A stretch of DNA of 10,611 nucleotides from assembly GCA_015222965.1 (NCBI GenBank), contig JADFWF010000205.1:1-10611 (forward strand), read 5' to 3'. The stretch's first letter is position 1. Each line of letters starts with the position of its first letter. The position numbers and the translations under genes are program-made. This document shows positions 1,438 to 9,234 of the stretch, piece after piece. The stretch is from Pseudomonadota bacterium (GTDB taxonomy: Bacteria > Pseudomonadota > Gammaproteobacteria > SZUA-229). Under the pieces are notes generated by a model, which saw nothing but the letters and a program-made list of their open reading frames with translations, made no database searches and was not told the DNA's origin.

Positions 1438-1461
1438 CTGCTGGAATCACTTTTCCAGCAG
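1438..1461. repeat. Hairpin spanning the moaB stop codon
   Basis: CTGCTGGAA (1438-1446) and TTCCAGCAG (1453-1461) are perfect 9-nt inverted arms around a 6-nt loop. The moaB stop codon (1447-1449) lies in the loop, so the right arm is coding. In the minus-strand transcript the hairpin is followed by TAATGAAAAACG, not a U-run, so it is not a classical intrinsic terminator. Together with the stem at 1398-1423 it forms two stem-loops between moaB and moeA that could modulate the relative expression of the two genes. Confidence 0.5.
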
Positions 1462-1965
1462 TCTCGGCATCAACGCAACAATATTACACGGCGTCGTATT
1501 ACAGTCTAATTGCGGCGCTATCACTTTGTCCCAACCCGTCCGACACGCTCCTGTAGAACCCGGCAAGCAGAAAATAAATGTACCGTTGGCCAGGCCACCG
1601 ACACAGCGTGATGCGATTGTCGATGTTCCGATCTCCTGGTAAGAGACCCAGCGAAACAATTCACCAACACCTTCGATCTCTTTATCGAATAATGGCTCGA
1701 CCGCTTCCGGCGTGATATCCCGCCCTGTTAATCCTGTACCACCCGTACTGATTACAACATCAACATCTTTATCCGCGATCCAGCGCGAAACTGCCTCGCG
1801 AATTTTGTATTTATCATCTGTACAGATAAGTTTTTCTGACAGGGTGTGGCCGGCTTTGCTCAGTCGTTCGACCAATGCATCTCCCGAAGTATCATCAGCT
1901 TCGGTCCGGCTGTCCGAGACGGTTAAAATTGCTATTTTTATCGGAACCCATTTTTTGTCATTCAT
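1447..1965 (-). CDS. moaB: Molybdenum cofactor biosynthesis protein MoaB
   Basis: MoaB belongs to the MogA/MoaB molybdopterin-binding fold. In bacteria with MogA its own reaction is unsettled; in others MoaB-type proteins adenylylate molybdopterin before MoeA adds metal. The 172-aa length matches proteobacterial MoaB (E. coli about 170 aa). Visible motifs are ILTVSDSR near residues 13-20, the signature VISTGGTGLTGRDITPEA (71-88), and the late substrate-binding block FCLPGSTGACRTGWD (132-146). The start ATG at 1965 is preceded by GGTGA about 10 nt upstream. It lies 96 nt downstream of pdsS and 83 nt upstream of moeA on the same strand. The moaB-moeA pairing supports a working Moco branch. Proximity to the sortase regulators is probably chance rather than a functional link. 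Confidence 0.96.
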   Translation of the reverse strand: MNDKKWVPIKIAILTVSDSRTEADDTSGDALVERLSKAGHTLSEKLICTDDKYKIREAVSRWIADKDVDVVISTGGTGLTGRDITPEAVEPLFDKEIEGVGELFRWVSYQEIGTSTIASRCVGGLANGTFIFCLPGSTGACRTGWDKVIAPQLDCNTTPCNIVALMPRLLEK

Positions 1966-2061: not shown

Positions 2062-4029
2062 CTAAACGCTTAAAGGTAATACTAAACTAACTTCAACACC
2101 TTGTTTATCCACACGATTAGCTACTTTTAACTGCCCGTGATGGAACTGTGCGATCTGAAACGCTACATATAATCCGATACCCAGATGCGGTATATCCGTC
2201 TTCGCAGATCGACGAGAAATCATTCCCTGAAAAAGCAGATCCAGTTGTTCCTGCGGAATATATTCTCCTTCGTTTTTTACATGGATAATGACTTTATTGT
2301 CCTGATTCACATCAAGTTCAAAAGAGATTTCCGTTTCAGGCAATGCAAAATCCAGCGCATTATCCTTAAGTTTATCGAGCAGCTGTACTATACGGATATC
2401 ATTGCCCTGTACAAAAACCCCACTTTTATCACCGATATGACGTAACCGTGCATCGGCATGTTTCAGCTGTGAGTTATCGACATATTCACTGAGTAAAGCC
2501 GCTATATCAATTTCATCGATCTCATCCTGCACCAATGCCTCGTCTATATTCGCCGCTTCTGTCAGACTCGAAACGATGAGCTGTAACTGTTTTATCGCAT
2601 CACTGGCTATCGCGATATCATCTGAATCACTTCGCTGCCTGATATTTTGCAATGACATACTGATGGTGTTTACAGGGTTTAATATCTCGTGGCGCAACAT
2701 ACGCGGTACGGTTTCAAGAAAACGGGTATAACTGTTCAGTCTACCGAGCAGTGCTGAAAAACCACGAGACAGCTCACCTATCTCATCACTGCGGTCACAG
2801 TCTGACAATTCGACGTGGCTGATAAATCGACCTTTCTCATCGATAAGTGACGCTGTCTGCTTTGTTAACCGGTTGATCCGGAATGCCAGCCACGAACTAA
2901 AAAAAAGCAGGCTGATAAAGACCAGAGCGAAAATACCAAGGGTTGCCAGTATTACATCGTTTAAAGTATCGCGTTGTCGTGAAAGAATCTGTCGGCTGTT
3001 CTTACTAACCAGAACGGCACCGATCACTTCCTCACCATCGTATACGGGTCTTGCCGCAACGATAAGCGTCTCACCCTCATCATCGATACGTCTTACCTGC
3101 TCCTCACCTAACAACACTTTATTTACCAGAGACTCGCTTACTCTATCGATGGCGTGACACAATGAAGCATGTAATGTCTGACCACCGATCACTGCTCGCA
3201 CCCGACGAAATTTATCGATGACGCATATCTGTGAATCTGATTCACTCAAATTTTTAAGTACGCTGCTGATCTCATGCGATTGAAACAGCAATGGATTCAA
3301 CGTGTCGTTATCGAGTATGTGTGTTGAAACGATATCTTCGATATTACGCTCGTTCTCACCAAACACATCAACAATGCTGATGGATAACCTTCTATTGGGT
3401 TCAAGCCATTTTCTTGGCATACGGATTTCAACATCGTAACCAGACCCTGTTTCACGCCAGACGCCGTAAACTAAATTTACATGTTTACCGTTTTTCCAGC
3501 TGGTCCAGTCTTCCTTCACCTCATAGACGCTGATACTCCCTTGCGCAGCAGTAACGACCACCAGGCGGTTTCGGTCGCCATGCTCATCAATGTACTCAAG
3601 TCTTATGTGGTCACTGGAATCTAATGAACTGTATCGAGGATTTCGATAGATAATGTTTTTGTCCGTTATTTTTAAATAGACATACAAGTATTGCGTATCA
3701 TTGACCAGTTCATTATTAGCCAGCAATAAAGAAAATGAATTATTTGCATATGATGTAAACTGCTCTTTGAGCTGTTCCCAATCTTCGTCATAACCATCGA
3801 TATTGATACTCTGCTTGAACGGATAGACGTACAGGGCATGCTCATCGATATCGAACAGTCCCGTATAACCATTCAACACTGTTGCAATAGCTGACGCAGA
3901 CATCGATTGCGCTTCTTCCTGTCCTTGTAAAAGAGAGCTCTCAATCTTTTCGATAAAGTGATAACCGAACCATGGCAGCATCACTAAAAATATTGAGCTG
4001 AATACGAGTAACCGTGCACCCAGTTTCAT
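2062..4029 (-). CDS. pdsS: Sortase-system sensor histidine kinase (PdsS-type)
   Basis: This inner-membrane sensor kinase should autophosphorylate on His and pass the phosphate to the adjacent response regulator. It has 655 aa. TM1 is at about 7-26, followed by a large extracytoplasmic region (about 27-355), TM2 (about 358-383) and a HAMP-like linker (about 385-437). The H-box is RMLRHEILNP, with His447; the N-box is DKLKDNALDF, with Asn558. The G1 position reads NEG (586-588), with Asn in place of the usual Asp; G2 is HLGIGLY (615-621). The outer part at about 70-225 resembles a CBM9-like beta-sandwich (IDGYDEDW at 77-84, LYVYLKITDKN at 115-125, DHIRLEYID at 140-148). Its ATG overlaps the regulator's stop as ATGA (4026-4029), implying translational coupling. 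The length, layout and neighbours fit the proteobacterial dedicated sortase system kinase family; the signal sensed is unknown. Confidence 0.9.
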   Translation of the reverse strand: MKLGARLLVFSSIFLVMLPWFGYHFIEKIESSLLQGQEEAQSMSASAIATVLNGYTGLFDIDEHALYVYPFKQSINIDGYDEDWEQLKEQFTSYANNSFSLLLANNELVNDTQYLYVYLKITDKNIIYRNPRYSSLDSSDHIRLEYIDEHGDRNRLVVVTAAQGSISVYEVKEDWTSWKNGKHVNLVYGVWRETGSGYDVEIRMPRKWLEPNRRLSISIVDVFGENERNIEDIVSTHILDNDTLNPLLFQSHEISSVLKNLSESDSQICVIDKFRRVRAVIGGQTLHASLCHAIDRVSESLVNKVLLGEEQVRRIDDEGETLIVAARPVYDGEEVIGAVLVSKNSRQILSRQRDTLNDVILATLGIFALVFISLLFFSSWLAFRINRLTKQTASLIDEKGRFISHVELSDCDRSDEIGELSRGFSALLGRLNSYTRFLETVPRMLRHEILNPVNTISMSLQNIRQRSDSDDIAIASDAIKQLQLIVSSLTEAANIDEALVQDEIDEIDIAALLSEYVDNSQLKHADARLRHIGDKSGVFVQGNDIRIVQLLDKLKDNALDFALPETEISFELDVNQDNKVIIHVKNEGEYIPQEQLDLLFQGMISRRSAKTDIPHLGIGLYVAFQIAQFHHGQLKVANRVDKQGVEVSLVLPLSV

Positions 4030-4718
4030 TCACACGACCATTGATAGCCGAATCCGTAACGTGTTTTTATACACTGGAAAGCTGCATCTACTTTTTTGAA
4101 TTTTTTTCGGATATGCAAAATGTGTGTATTGATCGTATTATCTTCCACTACACCCTGATGCGTTGCTTTTATCAACTCATCCACACTGACCGCTTCATCA
4201 ACTTCGACTAATTTCGCCAATATAGAAAATTCCGTCGGCGTCAGATTTATTTCTTTTTCTCTCCAGAAGCACTGCATCGATTTTTCATTAATGTTTAGCT
4301 CACCCGACCTGTTACTGCTTTCACTATTATTGCCAGTCGAGGTAAGTTGTTTTATCTGAAAAAAAGATTCGATGCGTACTATCAGATATTCCAGCGAAAC
4401 CGGTTTAGTCTGGTAATCCCAGGCGCCTAATTGCAAACCATATATCTTGTCCAGTTCGTCGCCGCGAGAGGTAAGAAAAACGACTGGCAGACTGGCTTCA
4501 CGTTGCTTTAGATATCGGCAGACTTCATAACCACCACCGACATCTGATTTTAATGCAATATCAAGGATTGCAAGGTCTGGCAATTTTTCATCAAAAGCAG
4601 CTATTGCCTGCGCCCTATCCTCAAGTTCAACAACGATATAGTCATGCGCCCTTAAAGCATCAGCGTAATAACTTCGCTGCTGAGCATCATCTTCTACGAT
4701 AGCTATTGTTTGTTTCAC
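4026..4718 (-). CDS. pdsR: Sortase-system response regulator, OmpR/PhoB type (PdsR-type)
   Basis: This is a DNA-binding response regulator of 230 aa from the chosen GTG start. The receiver domain occupies about 1-120, with acidic pocket ED-D (9-11), phospho-acceptor Asp53 in LPDLAILDIAL, Thr83 in VVFLTSRGDE and Lys105 in TKP. The winged-helix output domain (about 140-228) shows LTPTEF, the recognition-helix region EDNTINTHILHIRKKF and TRYGFGYQW. The GTG at 4718 is preferred because AAAGGA lies 6 nt upstream and the product then begins directly with the receiver strand (VKQTIAIVEDD). The in-frame ATG at 4760 would add 14 residues and has no ribosome site. It overlaps the kinase gene by 4 nt and is divergent from pdsO, so it may regulate that intergenic region. 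This matches the known family of dedicated-sortase response regulators. Confidence 0.9.
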   Translation of the reverse strand: MKQTIAIVEDDAQQRSYYADALRAHDYIVVELEDRAQAIAAFDEKLPDLAILDIALKSDVGGGYEVCRYLKQREASLPVVFLTSRGDELDKIYGLQLGAWDYQTKPVSLEYLIVRIESFFQIKQLTSTGNNSESSNRSGELNINEKSMQCFWREKEINLTPTEFSILAKLVEVDEAVSVDELIKATHQGVVEDNTINTHILHIRKKFKKVDAAFQCIKTRYGFGYQWSCE

Positions 4719-4932
4719 ATGGTTTCCTTTCAGCAATTTATATTTTCTCACTCTGGCCATTCGCAGAATAAAATAATTTAGCAGAATTTAAATCTCTTAA
4801 CTGGAAAATTAAACATCTCCATCTTTTCTCCATAATTCCTCCACTCACTGCCAAAGATTCAATCTTCCTCAATTGCTTTAATAATGTCGTGGAAACACTT
4901 AAATCACTTTTATAAAAAATCTGGAGAAAACA
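4719..4932. promoter_or_regulatory. Divergent intergenic region, pdsR / pdsO
   Basis: This AT-rich 214-nt region separates two divergent transcription units and must hold their promoters. A direct repeat GCAGAAT occurs at 4763-4769 and 4781-4787, 18 nt apart and close to the pdsR side. The TATAAA-like stretch at 4911-4916 and TTGCTT at 4873-4878 are promoter-like words, but no pair has correct spacing, so no precise promoter is called. The pdsO ribosome site GGAG is at 4923-4926, 6 nt from its ATG. No hairpin or RNA gene is evident. Confidence 0.4.
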
Positions 4933-5913
4933 ATGAAAAAATCTATATTAAATATCGCAGTAACAATGGCATTAACCAGTGCTATCTATTCCGGCTCAGT
5001 TCTATCAACACAGGCCTATGCTAATGAGCAAATCACTGATGATATGAACATCACTAACAATAATAGCAGTAACGACGATACAACTGAAAACTATATGTAC
5101 CCGGGCATGGGCGTTGGTGCAGCAACAGGAACGCTTGTCGCCGGGCCTGCTGGATTTGTTGTCGGCGGACTTATCGGTGCCATCGTCGGGGCCAACCAGG
5201 ATGTTTCATCAGATAATGAAACAGCAAGCACTGATCTGGCCGAAAATACTGCAGTACAGGACTCACCTGTTTCTGTCAGCGATGATCTACCGCTGGCTGA
5301 AACCACAGAGCAAAGTACTCTGCAGCAGGGTATTCAGGTTGCACAACTTGGCAGTATCAATACAGTAGTCGAAGACTCGATCGAGTCTCAGCATGACACG
5401 CTGATAGATATTCTTACTGCAGATCTCAGCCTCGATATTTATTTCCGTTCTGGAAGCACTGATATCGAAGCTTTCTATCCTGCTCGCCTTTCCGCAATCG
5501 CAGATCTCATGAACACCATGGATAAACTTGAACTGCACCTTGACGGTTACTCTGACAGACGTGGCAACAAAACAAAAAACATTGCCCTGGCTAACGAGCG
5601 TATTGCAAAAGTACGTGAGCAGTTGATCGATGCCGGTGTCGATGAAACTCGCATTATCAGCAAAGCCTTTGGTGAGATGAAAATGGTTTCAGCCGCTGGC
5701 GATCTTGAAGCTTATACCTTCGACCGCAAAGTCGTCATCCGCTTTGAACGCAGCAGTGCCAATTCGATTCATGCTATGACTACAGCACTTTCTGCCCCTG
5801 AATCAGTATCTGACACAACATCTAAAACTGAGATTGAAATAGCAGAAACAGCTTCATCCACAGCCGATGAAAATACAGGCCCGGTGGTTGCTGATGCGAC
5901 CACACGGTTTTGA
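4933..5913 (+). CDS. pdsO: Sortase-associated OmpA-like protein (PdsO-type)
   Basis: This is an exported envelope protein of 326 aa. A signal peptide (about 1-30, probable cut in TQAYA-NEQ) is followed by an Asn/Asp/Thr-rich linker and a glycine-zipper-like segment at about 56-86 (PGMGVGAATG, then GGLIGAIVGA) that could insert in a membrane. After a variable acidic spacer comes an OmpA/MotB-type domain (about 167-274). That domain contains IYFRSGSTDIE, the peptidoglycan-binding block LDGYSDRRGN (203-212), and NIALANERIAKVREQL (216-231). OmpA domains bind diaminopimelate in peptidoglycan non-covalently; the Asp and Arg residues expected for this are present. A Ser/Thr/Glu/Ala-rich tail (275-326) follows. 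GGAG lies 6 nt before the ATG. Its place directly upstream of the sortase target, and its architecture, match the PdsO family. The exact role in the sortase system is not known. Confidence 0.9.
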   Translation: MKKSILNIAVTMALTSAIYSGSVLSTQAYANEQITDDMNITNNNSSNDDTTENYMYPGMGVGAATGTLVAGPAGFVVGGLIGAIVGANQDVSSDNETASTDLAENTAVQDSPVSVSDDLPLAETTEQSTLQQGIQVAQLGSINTVVEDSIESQHDTLIDILTADLSLDIYFRSGSTDIEAFYPARLSAIADLMNTMDKLELHLDGYSDRRGNKTKNIALANERIAKVREQLIDAGVDETRIISKAFGEMKMVSAAGDLEAYTFDRKVVIRFERSSANSIHAMTTALSAPESVSDTTSKTEIEIAETASSTADENTGPVVADATTRF

Positions 5914-6269
5914 TGCCTGCTGTAACCACAACGAAGGTCAACACGTTAAGTGGTGTGAATATGATTTCGATGAATATTTTCAGCAAGACGTCCGGTTTTC
6001 GCATGACAAACCACGCACTGGAAAGATCTCAGCAACGTTGTATTCCGCCGCTGATCATCCACTGGCTCTGCCAGTATGGCTCACGCAAAAGAAATAACAA
6101 CGGGACCATCGTGTGTTATTTCGACAGGAAAAGTATGCGCCTTATCTCATCAGATGTCGGGCAGATAGTGATCCGGCGCTTATCCGGACTGATGAATGCA
6201 TACCTGGTGATAGCCGGTGATCAGATCCTCACCGTTGGTCATCGTTACAAACGCATCAAGAATTTTTAG
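5913..6269 (+). CDS. Small protein of unknown function, DUF4258-like, in sortase operon
   Basis: This small protein has 118 aa from the ATG that overlaps the pdsO stop (TGATG, 5911-5915), an arrangement suited to translational coupling. No strong ribosome site is visible. In-frame ATGs at 5961 (102 aa), 5970 and 6003 (88 aa) are alternatives; the last begins exactly at the conserved-looking core. That core (31-115) reads NHALERSQQRCIPPLII, CYFDRKSMRLI and ILTVGHRYKRI. I recall this pattern from small hypothetical proteins of Proteobacteria resembling DUF4258 (H-A-x-x-R-x-x-Q-R near the start, then a repeated V-x-Y-F-D type strand). There is no signal peptide or membrane segment, so it should be cytoplasmic. 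No function can be assigned. Coding on the same strand between two Pds genes, with only 57 nt to the next start, supports a real gene. Confidence 0.72.
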   Translation: MPAVTTTKVNTLSGVNMISMNIFSKTSGFRMTNHALERSQQRCIPPLIIHWLCQYGSRKRNNNGTIVCYFDRKSMRLISSDVGQIVIRRLSGLMNAYLVIAGDQILTVGHRYKRIKNF

Positions 6270-6289
6270 TGCAAAACTTTTAATCAGAC

Positions 6290-6312
6290 CGGTGGCACAC
6301 AGTGTGCCACCG
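6290..6312. repeat. Near-perfect palindrome before target-gene ribosome site
   Basis: CGGTGGCACAC (6290-6300) and GTGTGCCACCG (6302-6312) are exact inverted copies separated by one base. As RNA this is a 10-bp GC-rich hairpin with a 3-nt loop. It lies 2 nt before the AGGAG (6315-6319) and 14 nt before the ATG of the VIT/VWA protein. No T-run follows, so it is not a standard terminator. It could be an operator for a dimeric regulator, a 5' mRNA stabiliser for the downstream gene, or a translation-control hairpin. Confidence 0.7.
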
Positions 6313-6314
6313 AC

Positions 6315-6319
6315 AGGAG
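6315..6319 (+). promoter_or_regulatory. Ribosome binding site of the sortase target gene
   Basis: AGGAG ends 7 nt before the ATG at 6327. It decides that start over in-frame ATGs at 6336 and 6390, which lack such a site. It sits immediately beside the palindrome at 6290-6312, so folding of that hairpin could affect ribosome access. Confidence 0.8.
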
Positions 6320-6326
6320 TAGTGAT

Positions 6327-8459
6327 ATGAACACCATGAATAATTATTGTTTTCATCGGATTAAACAAAAACATAATACAAATTCAATAATGCTAAATAT
6401 CATCCATAAGATACTGGTCGTCATCAGCATATACCTGGTCTTTGGCCTGTTATTCCAACACGTCTACGCAAACATAAGCGAAGAAGAATACGACATAAGT
6501 ACTGACCCCCACCAGTCACAACATGGTTCGGTCTGGCTGCTACCTGATAATGGCCCTAACAATAACCAGTATATTGAAGCTCTGCAGATGCAGACAGATG
6601 TTGATTATGAGATTACCGGTGCTATCGCCAGGGCCAAAGTTAAACAACAGTTTAAAAACAGCAGTTCACTATGGGCTGAAGGCATCTATGTTTTTCCACT
6701 GCCAGAAAGGGCAGCGGTTGATCATTTCAGAATGGTCATCGGCGATCGCATCATAGAAGGCCAGGTAAAAGAACGCATCACCGCAAAGAAGATATATGAG
6801 AGAGCGAAATCAGAGGGAAAAAAAGCCAGCCTGATCGAACAGCAACGGCCTAATGTCTTCACTACCTCACTGGCTAATATAGCACCCGGTGAAATGATAA
6901 CTGTTGAATTTGAATTCCAGCAGACACTTGAATACAGGGATGACAGTTATCGATTACGTTTTCCTATGGTTGTCGGTCCCCGCTATCACACTGTTAAGCC
7001 ATTAATTCAAGAGAAGTCCGACCCTGCCGCAAATGAGACAAGTGTTCATACAGAAACACAGACCACAAAAAACACCAACAACCCTGTACGTATTCATATA
7101 TTACTGGATGCAGGCGTCAGTCTTTACGATCTAAATAGTTCTTATCACCGCATAAATATCAACCAGACCAGTGAAACACGTTACAGCATATCCACCATCG
7201 GTGAGAACATCCCATCAGACCGCGACTTTGAACTGGTATGGAAACCACAGTTAAATAATAAACCGCAGTTATCCGCCTTCAATGAAACTATCGATGGTGA
7301 AAATTACACCATGCTTACCCTGTTACCACCTGACCTGTCTCACCTGCAACAAAAAGTTCAGGCTCGCGACGTAATCTTTGTTTTAGATATATCAGGTTCG
7401 ATGTCAGGCACATCGATCGACCAGGCAAAAGCCTCTTTGATCACCGCACTGGACAGACTTTCCTCTATCGATCGGTTCAACATCATATGGTTCAACGATC
7501 AAACAGATCGTCTATTTGCTGAGACTGTGGCAGCGACCACACAGTACAAAAGCACAGCAAAACGTTTCATCGATAGCCTGGAAGCAGGTGGTGGCACCGA
7601 GATGTTACCAGCTCTGAAGCTGGCATTATCTAACCACGATGAATTTACACGTTTCAGGCAGGTCATCTTTTTAACGGATGGAAACATCAACAATGAAGCT
7701 GAACTGTTTGATGTTATAGACAGGAAACTGGGCGATAACCGCCTGTTCACTATCGGTATCGGTTCCGCGCCGAATTCATATTTTATGCGCAAGGCGGCGA
7801 ACAAAGGGCGTGGCACGTTTACTTATATCGGTGATGTTAATGAAGTTCAGAAAAAAACAATCACCCTGCTTAAAAAACTTGAAACACCTGCGTTGATCAA
7901 TATTCAGTTAGATCTAGATCGTGACAGCTACGAAATATTCCCCAATATCATCCCTGATCTATATGCCGGTGAAACAACAACTATTCTTGTCAAAGGCAAA
8001 CAGCTGCCGACTAGCATCACTATCAAAGGTGATTATGGGAACAGTGAGTGGCAGACCGGTGCAGAACTTACAAACACTACACAAGGCGGCATCCGAGTTG
8101 CCTGGGCGCGTGAAAAAATTTCATCACTGATGAGCCTGCGCCATGAATCAGCAGCAGAGAATGTCCGCGAGGCGATCAAACAGGAGGTTACCAGTACCGC
8201 ACTGCAACACCATCTGGTCAGCCGTTATACCAGCCTGGTCGCAGTTGATGTAACACCGGTGAATGTGACAGAAATGCTCTATCAGCAACGCATAAAAAAC
8301 AACCTGCCGCATGGCTGGAAAAGTCCGGCTGTTTCAAATGGACTTATGTTGGCACAGACGGCGACTGGTTCGAAATTCAACTTGTTGATGTCAGTTATAT
8401 TGTTTCTTGGTGGCATATTGATGTACAGGTATTTTTATCGAGATGCACTTATCTCTTAA
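6327..8459 (+). CDS. Sortase target protein with VIT and VWA domains
   Basis: This 710-aa protein is exported and probably the single substrate of the neighbouring sortase. A long basic N-region leads to a hydrophobic signal segment (about 23-48, ending HVYA). A VIT domain (about 75-205) contains FPLPERAAVDHF, RIIEGQVKE and the RA.SEGKKASLIEQQRPNVFTTS-type block. A VWA domain (about 346-520) has an intact MIDAS: DISGSMS (Asp354, Ser356, Ser358), Thr424 in GGGTEM and Asp451 in LTDGN. It should therefore bind a divalent metal and a protein or surface ligand. The C-terminus is sortase-type: LAQTATG (675-681), hydrophobic segment (about 684-701) and Arg-containing tail (701-710). The family normally shows LPxTx; Ala676 replaces Pro here. 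The layout matches the marine proteobacterial sortase target family. Its ligand and final location are unknown. Confidence 0.92.
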   Translation: MNTMNNYCFHRIKQKHNTNSIMLNIIHKILVVISIYLVFGLLFQHVYANISEEEYDISTDPHQSQHGSVWLLPDNGPNNNQYIEALQMQTDVDYEITGAIARAKVKQQFKNSSSLWAEGIYVFPLPERAAVDHFRMVIGDRIIEGQVKERITAKKIYERAKSEGKKASLIEQQRPNVFTTSLANIAPGEMITVEFEFQQTLEYRDDSYRLRFPMVVGPRYHTVKPLIQEKSDPAANETSVHTETQTTKNTNNPVRIHILLDAGVSLYDLNSSYHRININQTSETRYSISTIGENIPSDRDFELVWKPQLNNKPQLSAFNETIDGENYTMLTLLPPDLSHLQQKVQARDVIFVLDISGSMSGTSIDQAKASLITALDRLSSIDRFNIIWFNDQTDRLFAETVAATTQYKSTAKRFIDSLEAGGGTEMLPALKLALSNHDEFTRFRQVIFLTDGNINNEAELFDVIDRKLGDNRLFTIGIGSAPNSYFMRKAANKGRGTFTYIGDVNEVQKKTITLLKKLETPALINIQLDLDRDSYEIFPNIIPDLYAGETTTILVKGKQLPTSITIKGDYGNSEWQTGAELTNTTQGGIRVAWAREKISSLMSLRHESAAENVREAIKQEVTSTALQHHLVSRYTSLVAVDVTPVNVTEMLYQQRIKNNLPHGWKSPAVSNGLMLAQTATGSKFNLLMSVILFLGGILMYRYFYRDALIS

Positions 8460-8470
8460 AACGCTGGCAT

Positions 8471-8507
8471 CGCGGAATGAAAAAATCCGCTCCTACGGAT
8501 ATGGCGC
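8471..8507. repeat. REP-like hairpin unit, left part
   Basis: GCGGA (8472-8476) pairs with TCCGC (8486-8490), followed by TCCTACGGATATGGCGC. The GCGGA-loop-TCCGCTCCTACGG pattern is a REP-like word I recall as common between genes of Gammaproteobacteria. It starts 12 nt after the stop of the target gene. The hairpin is seen directly; the REP label is from memory. Confidence 0.55.
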
Positions 8508-8510
8508 AAT

Positions 8511-8583
8511 ATGCAGGTGTGAATTCACTCGCACAATTGACCCAAACACTGGCACCTGCGTGCGGATAAATTCGCACCTGCAT
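8511..8583. repeat. REP-like imperfect inverted repeat between target and sortase genes
   Basis: The 24-nt arms 8511-8534 and 8560-8583 are inverted copies matching at 20 of 24 positions, separated by 25 nt. The core words are GCAGGTG-GAATT and its complement AATTCGCACCTGC; a further GCACCTGC lies at 8552-8559 inside the loop. GTGCGAATT/AATTCGCAC palindromes of this kind are typical dispersed elements of Gammaproteobacteria. The right arm ends 7 nt before the sortase ribosome site. It lengthens the target-sortase gap to 142 nt and could act as an mRNA stem or a partial terminator. Confidence 0.75.
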
Positions 8584-8590
8584 GTAAAAC

Positions 8591-8596
8591 AGGAAA
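8591..8596 (+). promoter_or_regulatory. Ribosome binding site deciding the sortase start
   Basis: AGGAAA is followed 5 nt later by the ATG at 8602. This is the only good ribosome site in the region. It argues against the in-frame ATG at 8443, which would overlap the target gene and translate the REP-like element into 53 extra residues. Confidence 0.8.
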
Positions 8597-8601
8597 CAAT
8601 C

Positions 8602-9234
8602 ATGTGTAAATTATTTAATCGATATGCAAGAAATCTCACCACGATCATCATCGTAATATTATTCAGCACCAGTCTGTGGCAACTCGCCTCGGCTGGCTGG
8701 ATACAGGGCAAAGCGATTATTGCACAGCGACTGCTTAATCATTCCTGGGATAAGACCATGATCGATCATGGAAAGAGCAATGTAAAAAAAGTTAAAGCTG
8801 CGAATCAGAAAGCCATTACCCACAAACCATGGCCATGGGCAGACACCTGGCCGGTAGCAAAACTGATCGTACCACAACACCATATCGAGCAGATTATCCT
8901 CGCTGGCGACAGTGGCAACAGCCTGGCCTTCGGGCCGGGGCATTCATTTACCAGTGCGGCTCCAAATTCTGCAGGGACCACAGTGATCAGCGCACATCGT
9001 GACACCCACTTTCAATTTCTTAAAGATTTGAAAACAAATGAAGAAATCTTTATACAGACAGCCGATAAAACTTTGACCTACCAGGTTTATGACACACAAG
9101 TTGTTGATAGCAGGAGATTTAAACTTCAGCCTGTCAGTGACAGAAAAACACTGGTCCTCGTCACCTGTTATCCTTTTGACTCTCTTGAAACTGGTGGCAC
9201 ATTACGCTTTCTTGTCTATGCAGCCGCAACTTAA
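8602..9234 (+). CDS. Class GN sortase
   Basis: This is a membrane-anchored cysteine transpeptidase of 210 aa, close to the family's usual 200 or so. An uncleaved signal anchor lies at about 12-33 (LTTIIIVILFSTSLWQLAS). The sortase beta-barrel spans about 75-207. It shows the family-type WPWADTWPVAKL (77-88) and LAFGPGH (108-114). The catalytic His is His132 in SAHRDTHF, Cys189 is in VTCYPFD, and Arg202 is in GGTLRFLVY, so the triad is complete. The enzyme should cut the C-terminal sorting signal of the VIT/VWA protein encoded just upstream and join or release it outside the inner membrane. What it is joined to in Gram-negative envelopes is unknown. A longer reading frame from 8443 was not used, for lack of a ribosome site and because it crosses a REP-like repeat. 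Confidence 0.94.
   Translation: MCKLFNRYARNLTTIIIVILFSTSLWQLASAGWIQGKAIIAQRLLNHSWDKTMIDHGKSNVKKVKAANQKAITHKPWPWADTWPVAKLIVPQHHIEQIILAGDSGNSLAFGPGHSFTSAAPNSAGTTVISAHRDTHFQFLKDLKTNEEIFIQTADKTLTYQVYDTQVVDSRRFKLQPVSDRKTLVLVTCYPFDSLETGGTLRFLVYAAAT

Follow-up and report, generated by a model that had tools for sequence, protein, structure and literature searches.

Dedicated sortase systems of proteobacteria are the closest described relatives of the locus analyzed here. A passage of PMC3237569 describes this vault-like target next to a dedicated sortase of Gram-negative bacteria, and another passage there states that the target family can bear differing C-terminal signals in different bacteria. In an excerpt of PMC10581121, class GN sortases are called poorly described, with an unknown role in Gram-negative bacteria, and part of a transcriptome table in PMC6637203 includes an Ensifer target homologue among the regulated genes. 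Judging by record titles, the targets of class GN sortases are spread over several bacterial phyla. The window analyzed in this study is the entire contig JADFWF010000205.1 (10,611 bases), from a gammaproteobacterial genome of 2.05 Mb in 371 contigs that is 75% complete. It encodes a sensor kinase, a response regulator, the OmpA-like protein PdsO, a target with VIT and VWA domains and a sortase, together with a further small gene, here named orfX. We consider it probable that this locus is a class GN dedicated sortase operon with regulatory genes of a divergent subtype, in which a sixth gene has been added and expression is controlled by both an operator and an RNA hairpin.

The locus resembles the described class GN systems in its gene set, in a sortase and a target that both exceed the curated family cut-offs, and in the position of the VIT/VWA target beside the sortase. 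It differs in that the kinase and regulator fall below their cut-offs and belong to a subfamily of their own, in that the sorting motif is LAQTA rather than LPxTG, and in the additional presence of orfX, a hairpin and a CTCCAT box. The sorting core is already known, whereas the control layer and the sixth gene appear new to us; the open-access literature, a scope that leaves out most subscription papers and preprints, yielded no account of the operator, the hairpin or orfX in the text available. The single-site candidate operator, the covarying hairpin and the small extra protein provide concrete handles on the signal and the control logic, which could be rebuilt in a laboratory host, the source organism being uncultured. 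The features of the window are as follows.

119–1363 and 1447–1965, minus strand: moeA and moaB, molybdenum cofactor genes (profile matches)
2062–4029, minus strand: sensor histidine kinase, divergent and PdsS-like (TIGR03785, domain matches, H-box)
4026–4718, minus strand: OmpR/PhoB-type response regulator, divergent and PdsR-like (TIGR03787; Response_reg and Trans_reg_C domains; tree)
4817–4843, no strand: candidate operator of three CTCCA(T) direct repeats with an 11-nucleotide (nt) period, in the divergent regulator–pdsO spacer (footprint alignment)
4933–5913, plus strand: pdsO, OmpA-like protein with probable export and a glycine-rich stretch (TIGR03789; OmpA PF00691 at residues 170–255)
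5913–6269, plus strand: orfX, basic protein of 118 residues (homologue matches)
6290–6312, plus strand: RNA hairpin CGGTGGCACAC-A-GTGTGCCACCG in the orfX–target spacer, 2 nt before AGGAG, the probable target ribosome site
6327–8459, plus strand: VIT/VWA sortase target (TIGR03788; VIT and VWA profile matches)
8462–8584, no strand: stretch with a dispersed repeat resembling repetitive extragenic palindromes (REP-like) between target and sortase
8602–9234, plus strand: class GN sortase of 210 residues with an N-terminal transmembrane (TM)-like stretch (TIGR03784; H132, C189, R202)

The kinase–regulator pair and its candidate operator

Comparison with the NCBIfam models placed the sortase (TIGR03784, 192.6 bits against a curated cut-off of 158.25) and the target (TIGR03788, 703 against 551.65) over their thresholds, and PdsO (TIGR03789, 152.4 against 152.2) marginally so, by 0.2 bits. 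The regulator (TIGR03787, 219.5 against 335.7) and the kinase (TIGR03785, 422.6 against 612.2) scored under the cut-offs of what are still their best-matching families, and they were not assigned to the PdsR and PdsS equivalogs. A preliminary description of this DNA, made without database searches, had read the five genes as intact and contiguous, which is borne out by open, adjoining reading frames across 2062–9234. The family models it named as a test put none of the proteins in an unrelated family, but the kinase and regulator miss the curated cut-offs. The extra embedded gene that it noticed is real but was under-read, being in fact a lineage-specific conserved gene. Its view of a regulated set of one sortase and one target draws support from the single sortase match and the single candidate operator, and its overall interpretation holds in part. 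It also suggested that the pathway may display the product on the surface or release it, and that PdsO could tether it. The catalytic His-Cys-Arg residues of the sortase are present (H132, C189 and R202, numbered from the ATG at 8602), as they are in 89 of 103 aligned sortase rows, the other 14 being cut, misread or misaligned. Two models found one sortase in the window's genome, as far as its 75% completeness allows.

The kinase consists of an N-terminal TM-like stretch, a CBM9-like periplasmic region, a second TM-like stretch, a weak HAMP domain, HisKA and HATPase, with H447 in the RHEILNP H-box of HisKA. The CBM9-like region spans approximately residues 65–245 (nt 3295–3837), and the CBM9 alignment covers residues 79–211. 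When the periplasmic parts of 27 kinases were aligned, few residues were invariant (G, W, D, D, G, G and E). CBM9_1 matched 12 of these 27 family sensors at E <= 1, with a best value of 1.2e-5 and 0.0029 for the window sensor, and the best sequence match of the sensor profile in the PDB was a beta-xylanase chain, 7nwn (E 0.0035). A second, Cache-like match was observed in 13 of the 27 whole kinases. The sensor is therefore like a CBM9 carbohydrate-binding domain in that it aligns with one and finds a beta-xylanase chain as its best PDB sequence match, and unlike it in scoring under the Pfam cut-off and in being built into a kinase; a CBM9-like sensor fold is predicted with moderate confidence. 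For the regulator, a GTG start at 4718 is more likely than the ATG at 4760, which is also possible. As judged from sequence comparison, the kinase and regulator form a divergent subfamily.

PhoB boxes are direct repeats with an 11-nt period. The spacer between the divergent regulator and pdsO genes contains a comparable element, with the consensus CTCCAT-N5-CTCCAT-N5-CTCCA and an exact 11-nt period, in the alignment of 11 of the 13 spacers from same-genus orfX loci. Ten of the 11 rows span all three repeats, and the remaining row (L035) is cut to the last repeat; mismatches within the repeats occur in L037, L043 and L055. The alignment left out L033, where the spacer is long and includes an inverted repeat, and L054, whose contig lacks the regulator; a pattern search found the box in both of these loci and in L035. 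The element is thus like PhoB/OmpR-type operators in its direct repeats of 11-nt period beside a regulator of the OmpR/PhoB type, and unlike them in its repeat unit, CTCCAT. We infer that the CTCCAT box is a candidate operator of this regulator.

The distribution of the box was surveyed in the fetched loci (1.85 Mb in total), in an order sample of 54 genomes (one family, 14 genera) and in a class sample of 369 genomes including the window's own. Sites matching at 13 or more of the 15 positions were found in 27 fetched loci, each of them in the spacer that borders the regulator gene, or ahead of pdsO where the contig starts there. With up to two mismatches, 24 order genomes match, 23 of them at the locus and 10 of these exactly. 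Of the 24 genomes with orfX, 23 carry the box at the locus; in the remaining one (G078), the contig ends within pdsO. Four off-locus matches in the order (G010 C104, G005 C13, G037 C62 and G034 C154, the last of which was inspected) compare with two matches of the reversed control pattern and are taken as background. No second site was found in the window's genome, and in the class sample the only exact match is the window's own, with none among the 368 other genomes. A regulator tree of 66 rows groups the 23 labelled box carriers with L098 in a 24-row group (100/98). L098 had not been labelled beforehand, yet it falls inside this group; L095 sits on a long branch and its placement is unsure. 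In the distant loci L095, L098 and L106, the kinase shares the EIxNP H-box and a 13/15 site stands beside the regulator.

Several further elements were observed around these spacers. On the 3' side of the repeats (4844–4932), GCCAAAGATTGA is followed by TTG-N-TTTAATA. Most of the 11 aligned spacers share both elements, which perhaps represent a core promoter and a second site. The regulator–pdsO spacer of L033, and this spacer alone, contains a perfect inverted repeat of 30 base pairs (bp), probably a mobile element. In Shewanella loci (L113, L122, L131, L132 and L145), a related but distinct repeat, approximately GCCA[CT]TTT with copies 22 nt apart, lies upstream of the regulator and might serve the main PdsR subfamily as its operator. 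An operator-like site with two mismatches occurs five times in near-identical form on one contig of an unrelated genome (G301:C1), probably inside a repeat.

OrfX and the hairpin before the target

The ATG of orfX at 5913 overlaps the pdsO stop codon (TGATG). The predicted protein is basic, with an isoelectric point of 10.7, 17 Lys/Arg and 4 Asp/Glu residues, and has no TM-like stretch. Its length alone is a weak argument, an equally long open stretch arising in 67 of 2000 resampled spacers; a chance reading frame is ruled out by conservation instead. Homologues comprise 128 proteins at E <= 0.01, and 565 in a profile search (the best 120 of which were listed), with a core of approximately 88 residues, H-A-x2-R-x-Q-Q-R-x-I-P-P-L-I-I-x-W-L ... 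T-V-G-H-R-Y. In the order, orfX occurs in 24 of 54 genomes and 3 of 14 genera (g1, g10 and g13), in all 24 after pdsO. The sortase follows a few kb downstream in 19 of these genomes, the contig ends sooner in three (G002, G003 and G011), and two (G009 and G017) have lost the sortase and most of the target. The order search found no orfX in g5 and g7, two genera of this family that do carry a sortase, nor in G037 (g13), where part of a sortase lies at the end of a contig. The orfX-matching stretch crosses one stop codon in three g10 genomes (G040, G080 and G081). Among 80 named class GN target loci, one has orfX (L068, from the gammaproteobacterial metagenome-assembled genome RS_8_68, apparently the order's G080), and the fetched Shewanella loci showed no copy.

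These data bear on whether orfX belongs to the sorting system at all. It could be an independent gene lodged in the operon with no sorting role, perhaps a former toxin related to DUF4258 and the RelE superfamily, an explanation that we regard as possible but on the unlikely side. Its persistence in L051 and L055, where the sortase and most of the target were lost, would fit, as would the class sample, in which four weak relatives were found beyond the window's own OrfX and the three inspected showed no sortase parts in the 8–16 kb fetched. DUF4258 is placed in the RelE/ParE superfamily, with unknown function, in an excerpt of PMC11980606. The similarity to this family is limited to some OrfX members (7 of 42, best E 0.032, all below the gathering score) and to the distant relatives L064, L065 and L066 (E 0.0076, 0.045 and 0.0012, under the cut-off); the window's OrfX gives no DUF4258 (PF14076) match up to E 10. 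OrfX also departs from DUF4258 in matching DUF3599 as well (8 of 42 members, best E 0.034) and in being set in a sortase operon. The family phrog_6182, a PHROG without known function, matches 36 of 42 members (best E 1.1e-4), and PADLOC returned no result for orfX. Against independence, orfX in the order is found solely in this operon, its start overlaps pdsO, and the kinase, regulator and pdsO survive alongside it. In addition, its rate of nonsynonymous substitution (dN, used alone since synonymous sites are mostly saturated) is the lowest of the operon genes in 9 of 10 pairs compared.

The orfX–target spacer contains an inverted repeat that folds as a hairpin in all 13 same-genus orfX loci, with a stem of 8–13 bp whose distance to the probable ribosome site is 0–3 nt, except in L037 (14 nt). 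The stem is a perfect complement of at least 8 bp in 12 of the 13 loci, a result matched by at most 1 in 100 resampled spacers, and in L035 it has 10 bp including one G-U pair. Stems of at least 8 bp occur elsewhere in the same loci three times, in the window's moeA–moaB spacer and in the regulator–pdsO spacers of L033 and L052. Folding z-scores range from -1.8 to -5.6, with -2.1 for a longer stretch of 95 nt in the window. In an alignment of 11 rows (L035 and L037 having been misplaced by MAFFT and dropped), 95% of the cells are paired, compared with 22–49% when the alignment is slid; both partners have changed in 8 of 11 pairs, which none of 500 shuffles reached (5 of 500 for further pair types). 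Rfam gave no match at gathering score, the best sub-threshold E being 0.62. Weaker matches of a covariance model built from the 11 rows (L158–L160) are taken as chance; L158 lies in an opposite-strand open frame, and the other two were inspected as sequence only.

The repeat might instead act as DNA, namely as an operator, a sigma-54 promoter, a terminator or a mobile repeat, which we judge very unlikely. In DNA it is a perfect palindrome, and the window's copy resembles the TGGCAC-N5 spacing of sigma-54 promoters. However, the loop varies from 1 to 12 nt so that half-site spacing is not kept, and the L035 stem needs its G-U pair. No T run follows the stem and none of the terminator-like sites of the scan lies at the hairpin; the core pattern has a single occurrence within the window's genome, and the sigma-54 reading was rejected along with the other DNA-element readings.

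Stems placed just 5' of a ribosome site can stabilize downstream mRNA. Accordingly, the hairpin may be a generic processing or stability stem that gives segmental stability to the polycistron and is unrelated to OrfX, which would act elsewhere; we give this close to, though somewhat less than, an even chance. In genera g10 and g13, all 11 orfX loci examined lack the hairpin (the L059 spacer was mismeasured), the orfX–target spacer there being short or missing in most cases. Within the genus, the sequence of the stem varies as well, the TGGCA core being missing in 4 of 13 loci. Yet stability requires no particular sequence, and TGGCA recurs in 9 of 13 stems despite mostly saturated synonymous sites. 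Furthermore, the covariance model found in the 54 genomes, below E 1e-3, only its own rows and the reverse strands of two of them, the nearest other match (E 0.0011) lying inside another gene.

A more specific hypothesis is that OrfX is a RelE-superfamily-like, RNA-binding regulator that would recognize or cut the hairpin and thereby gate synthesis of target and sortase after transcription. In its full form, this proposal treats the kinase, regulator, pdsO, orfX and hairpin as a sensing module that can outlive the sortase and its target and lies, in several loci of the genus, between molybdenum-cofactor and nitrate-reductase-type genes; we hold it to be doubtful. It is rated lower because TGGCA is found in only 9 of 13 stems and because the covariance model misses the left-out same-genus hairpins of L035 and L037 (E 0.55 and 0.66), and the g10 and g13 loci, which carry orfX without a hairpin, make the tie between OrfX and hairpin a tentative one. 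If true, OrfX–hairpin gating would amount to two-layer control, by operator and RNA, of protein sorting in a Gram-negative bacterium.

The sorting motif and loci without sortase

The target comprises an N-terminal TM-like signal, the VIT and VWA domains, a conserved NLPHGW and, after it, LMLAQTATG followed by a C-terminal TM-like helix. An LPxTG signal had been expected. A search of the target for LPxT[G/A] before the C-terminal TM stretch found none; the motif at this position is LAQTA, within LAQTATG at 8349–8369. Among the 120 best-listed target homologues, the motif was readable in 110 by a stricter reader (the rows without a readable motif being P0007, P0032, P0039, P0082, P0088, P0092, P0096, P0101, P0102 and P0104), and position 2 was Ala in 76, Pro in 33 and Arg in 1. 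Position 4 was Thr in all 33 Pro-type motifs and in 53 of the 76 Ala-type motifs, so that Thr is lost in 23 of 76 compared with 0 of 33. The stricter reader was used for these counts since the automatic one misread several truncated targets; the latter gave Ala at position 2 in 26 of 104 targets of the fetched loci, a figure that includes some misreads and a few duplicate loci.

Such changes could indicate that the sorting system is decaying in the genus, with first Pro and then Thr lost from the motif and finally whole sortase–target pairs deleted. Loosening of the motif and the losses in L051 and L055 are in line with decay, as is the lack of sortase, orfX and box in 5 of 18 same-genus genomes (G001, G007, G008, G012 and G015), one of which is 98% complete, though the other four are 65–82% complete. 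In contrast, the LARAA and LAQAA targets of L039 and L043 still adjoin sortases that have the catalytic triad, and Ala at position 2 recurs far outside the genus (for example, in L027, L028, L036, L095, L106, L126 and L143) and may therefore be tolerated. Taken together, we find decay unlikely. Because Thr-less motifs persist beside triad sortases and Ala-type motifs recur outside the genus, the strict LPxTG idea fails for this subgroup, as far as the motifs can be read. The five genomes suggest in turn that the genus may acquire or lose the sortase set in one piece.

Two loci, L051 (G009) and L055 (G017), have lost the sortase and most of the target. Both retain the regulator, pdsO, orfX, the hairpin, the ribosome site and the first 54–65 target codons, and the kinase is kept as well, that of L055 running off the contig. 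No class GN sortase was found elsewhere in these genomes, which are 88% and 97% complete. The dN values of the remaining genes against the window are similar in L051 and in L052, where the target is present as far as the contig reaches. The kinase, regulator, pdsO and orfX may thus have a function beyond serving the sortase, being kept in two genomes with only a target stub and no sortase. The LAQTA motif and these two loci suggest that the other members of the set can do without an LPxTG signal, and without the sortase as well.

The proposed mechanism and neighboring genes

We propose that the kinase responds to a ligand in the periplasm, perhaps a sugar, by phosphorylating the regulator. The regulator would bind the CTCCAT repeats and switch on pdsO, orfX, target and sortase, perhaps together with its own genes, and little else, because no second box site is found in the window's genome. 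The target would be exported and held by its C-terminal helix; the sortase would cleave it within LAQTA, by analogy at the T–A bond, and transfer it to an acceptor. The hairpin may set the yield of target and sortase apart from that of pdsO and orfX, via a bound factor or by shielding of the mRNA.

Several points weigh against this reading. The kinase and regulator are both short of the NCBIfam cut-offs, and the CBM9 (PF06452) score of the sensor, 18.0 bits, is under the Pfam gathering score of 23.4. Binding of the box by the regulator is deduced from position and period alone, and 23 of the 368 other class genomes match the box with one or two mismatches, compared with reversed-control matches in 11 genomes; near matches to the box alone are no proof. 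The hairpins missed by the covariance model and the hairpin-free orfX loci of g10 and g13 bear on the RNA component. The loss of Thr from Ala-type motifs looks as if recognition had been relaxed. The single-target status rests on an incomplete genome; PF00746 has no match over its cut-off in this 75% complete genome, and it misses the known target too. Finally, direct functional tests of any member of the system were not found in the available text of the open-access literature searched.

The start of the sortase is more likely the ATG at 8602 than that at 8443, because the stretch 8462–8584 contains a repeat that gives 27 further short matches across the genome. A reading frame from the apparent start at 8443 would run through this REP-like repeat; the 27 matches all fall within positions 3–56 of the 123-nt query, in its first half, and an inverted repeat lies at 8511–8583. 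Over the window, a promoter scan gave fewer promoter-like sites than shuffled sequences (10 compared with 17.4) and more terminator-like sites (11 compared with 5.5).

On the kinase side, moeA and/or moaB adjoin the kinase in all 11 same-genus loci, the window included, that extend that far. Downstream of the sortase, nine same-genus loci with sortase can be compared: napF-A-G-H genes follow in L029, L035, L037 and L039, a NapC-like cytochrome gene follows in L031 and L043, and L033, L041 and the window have a porin there instead, with no nap or NapC-like gene. In L051, napFAGHBC comes directly after the target stub, and in L055 a NapC-like cytochrome gene lies downstream of the stub.

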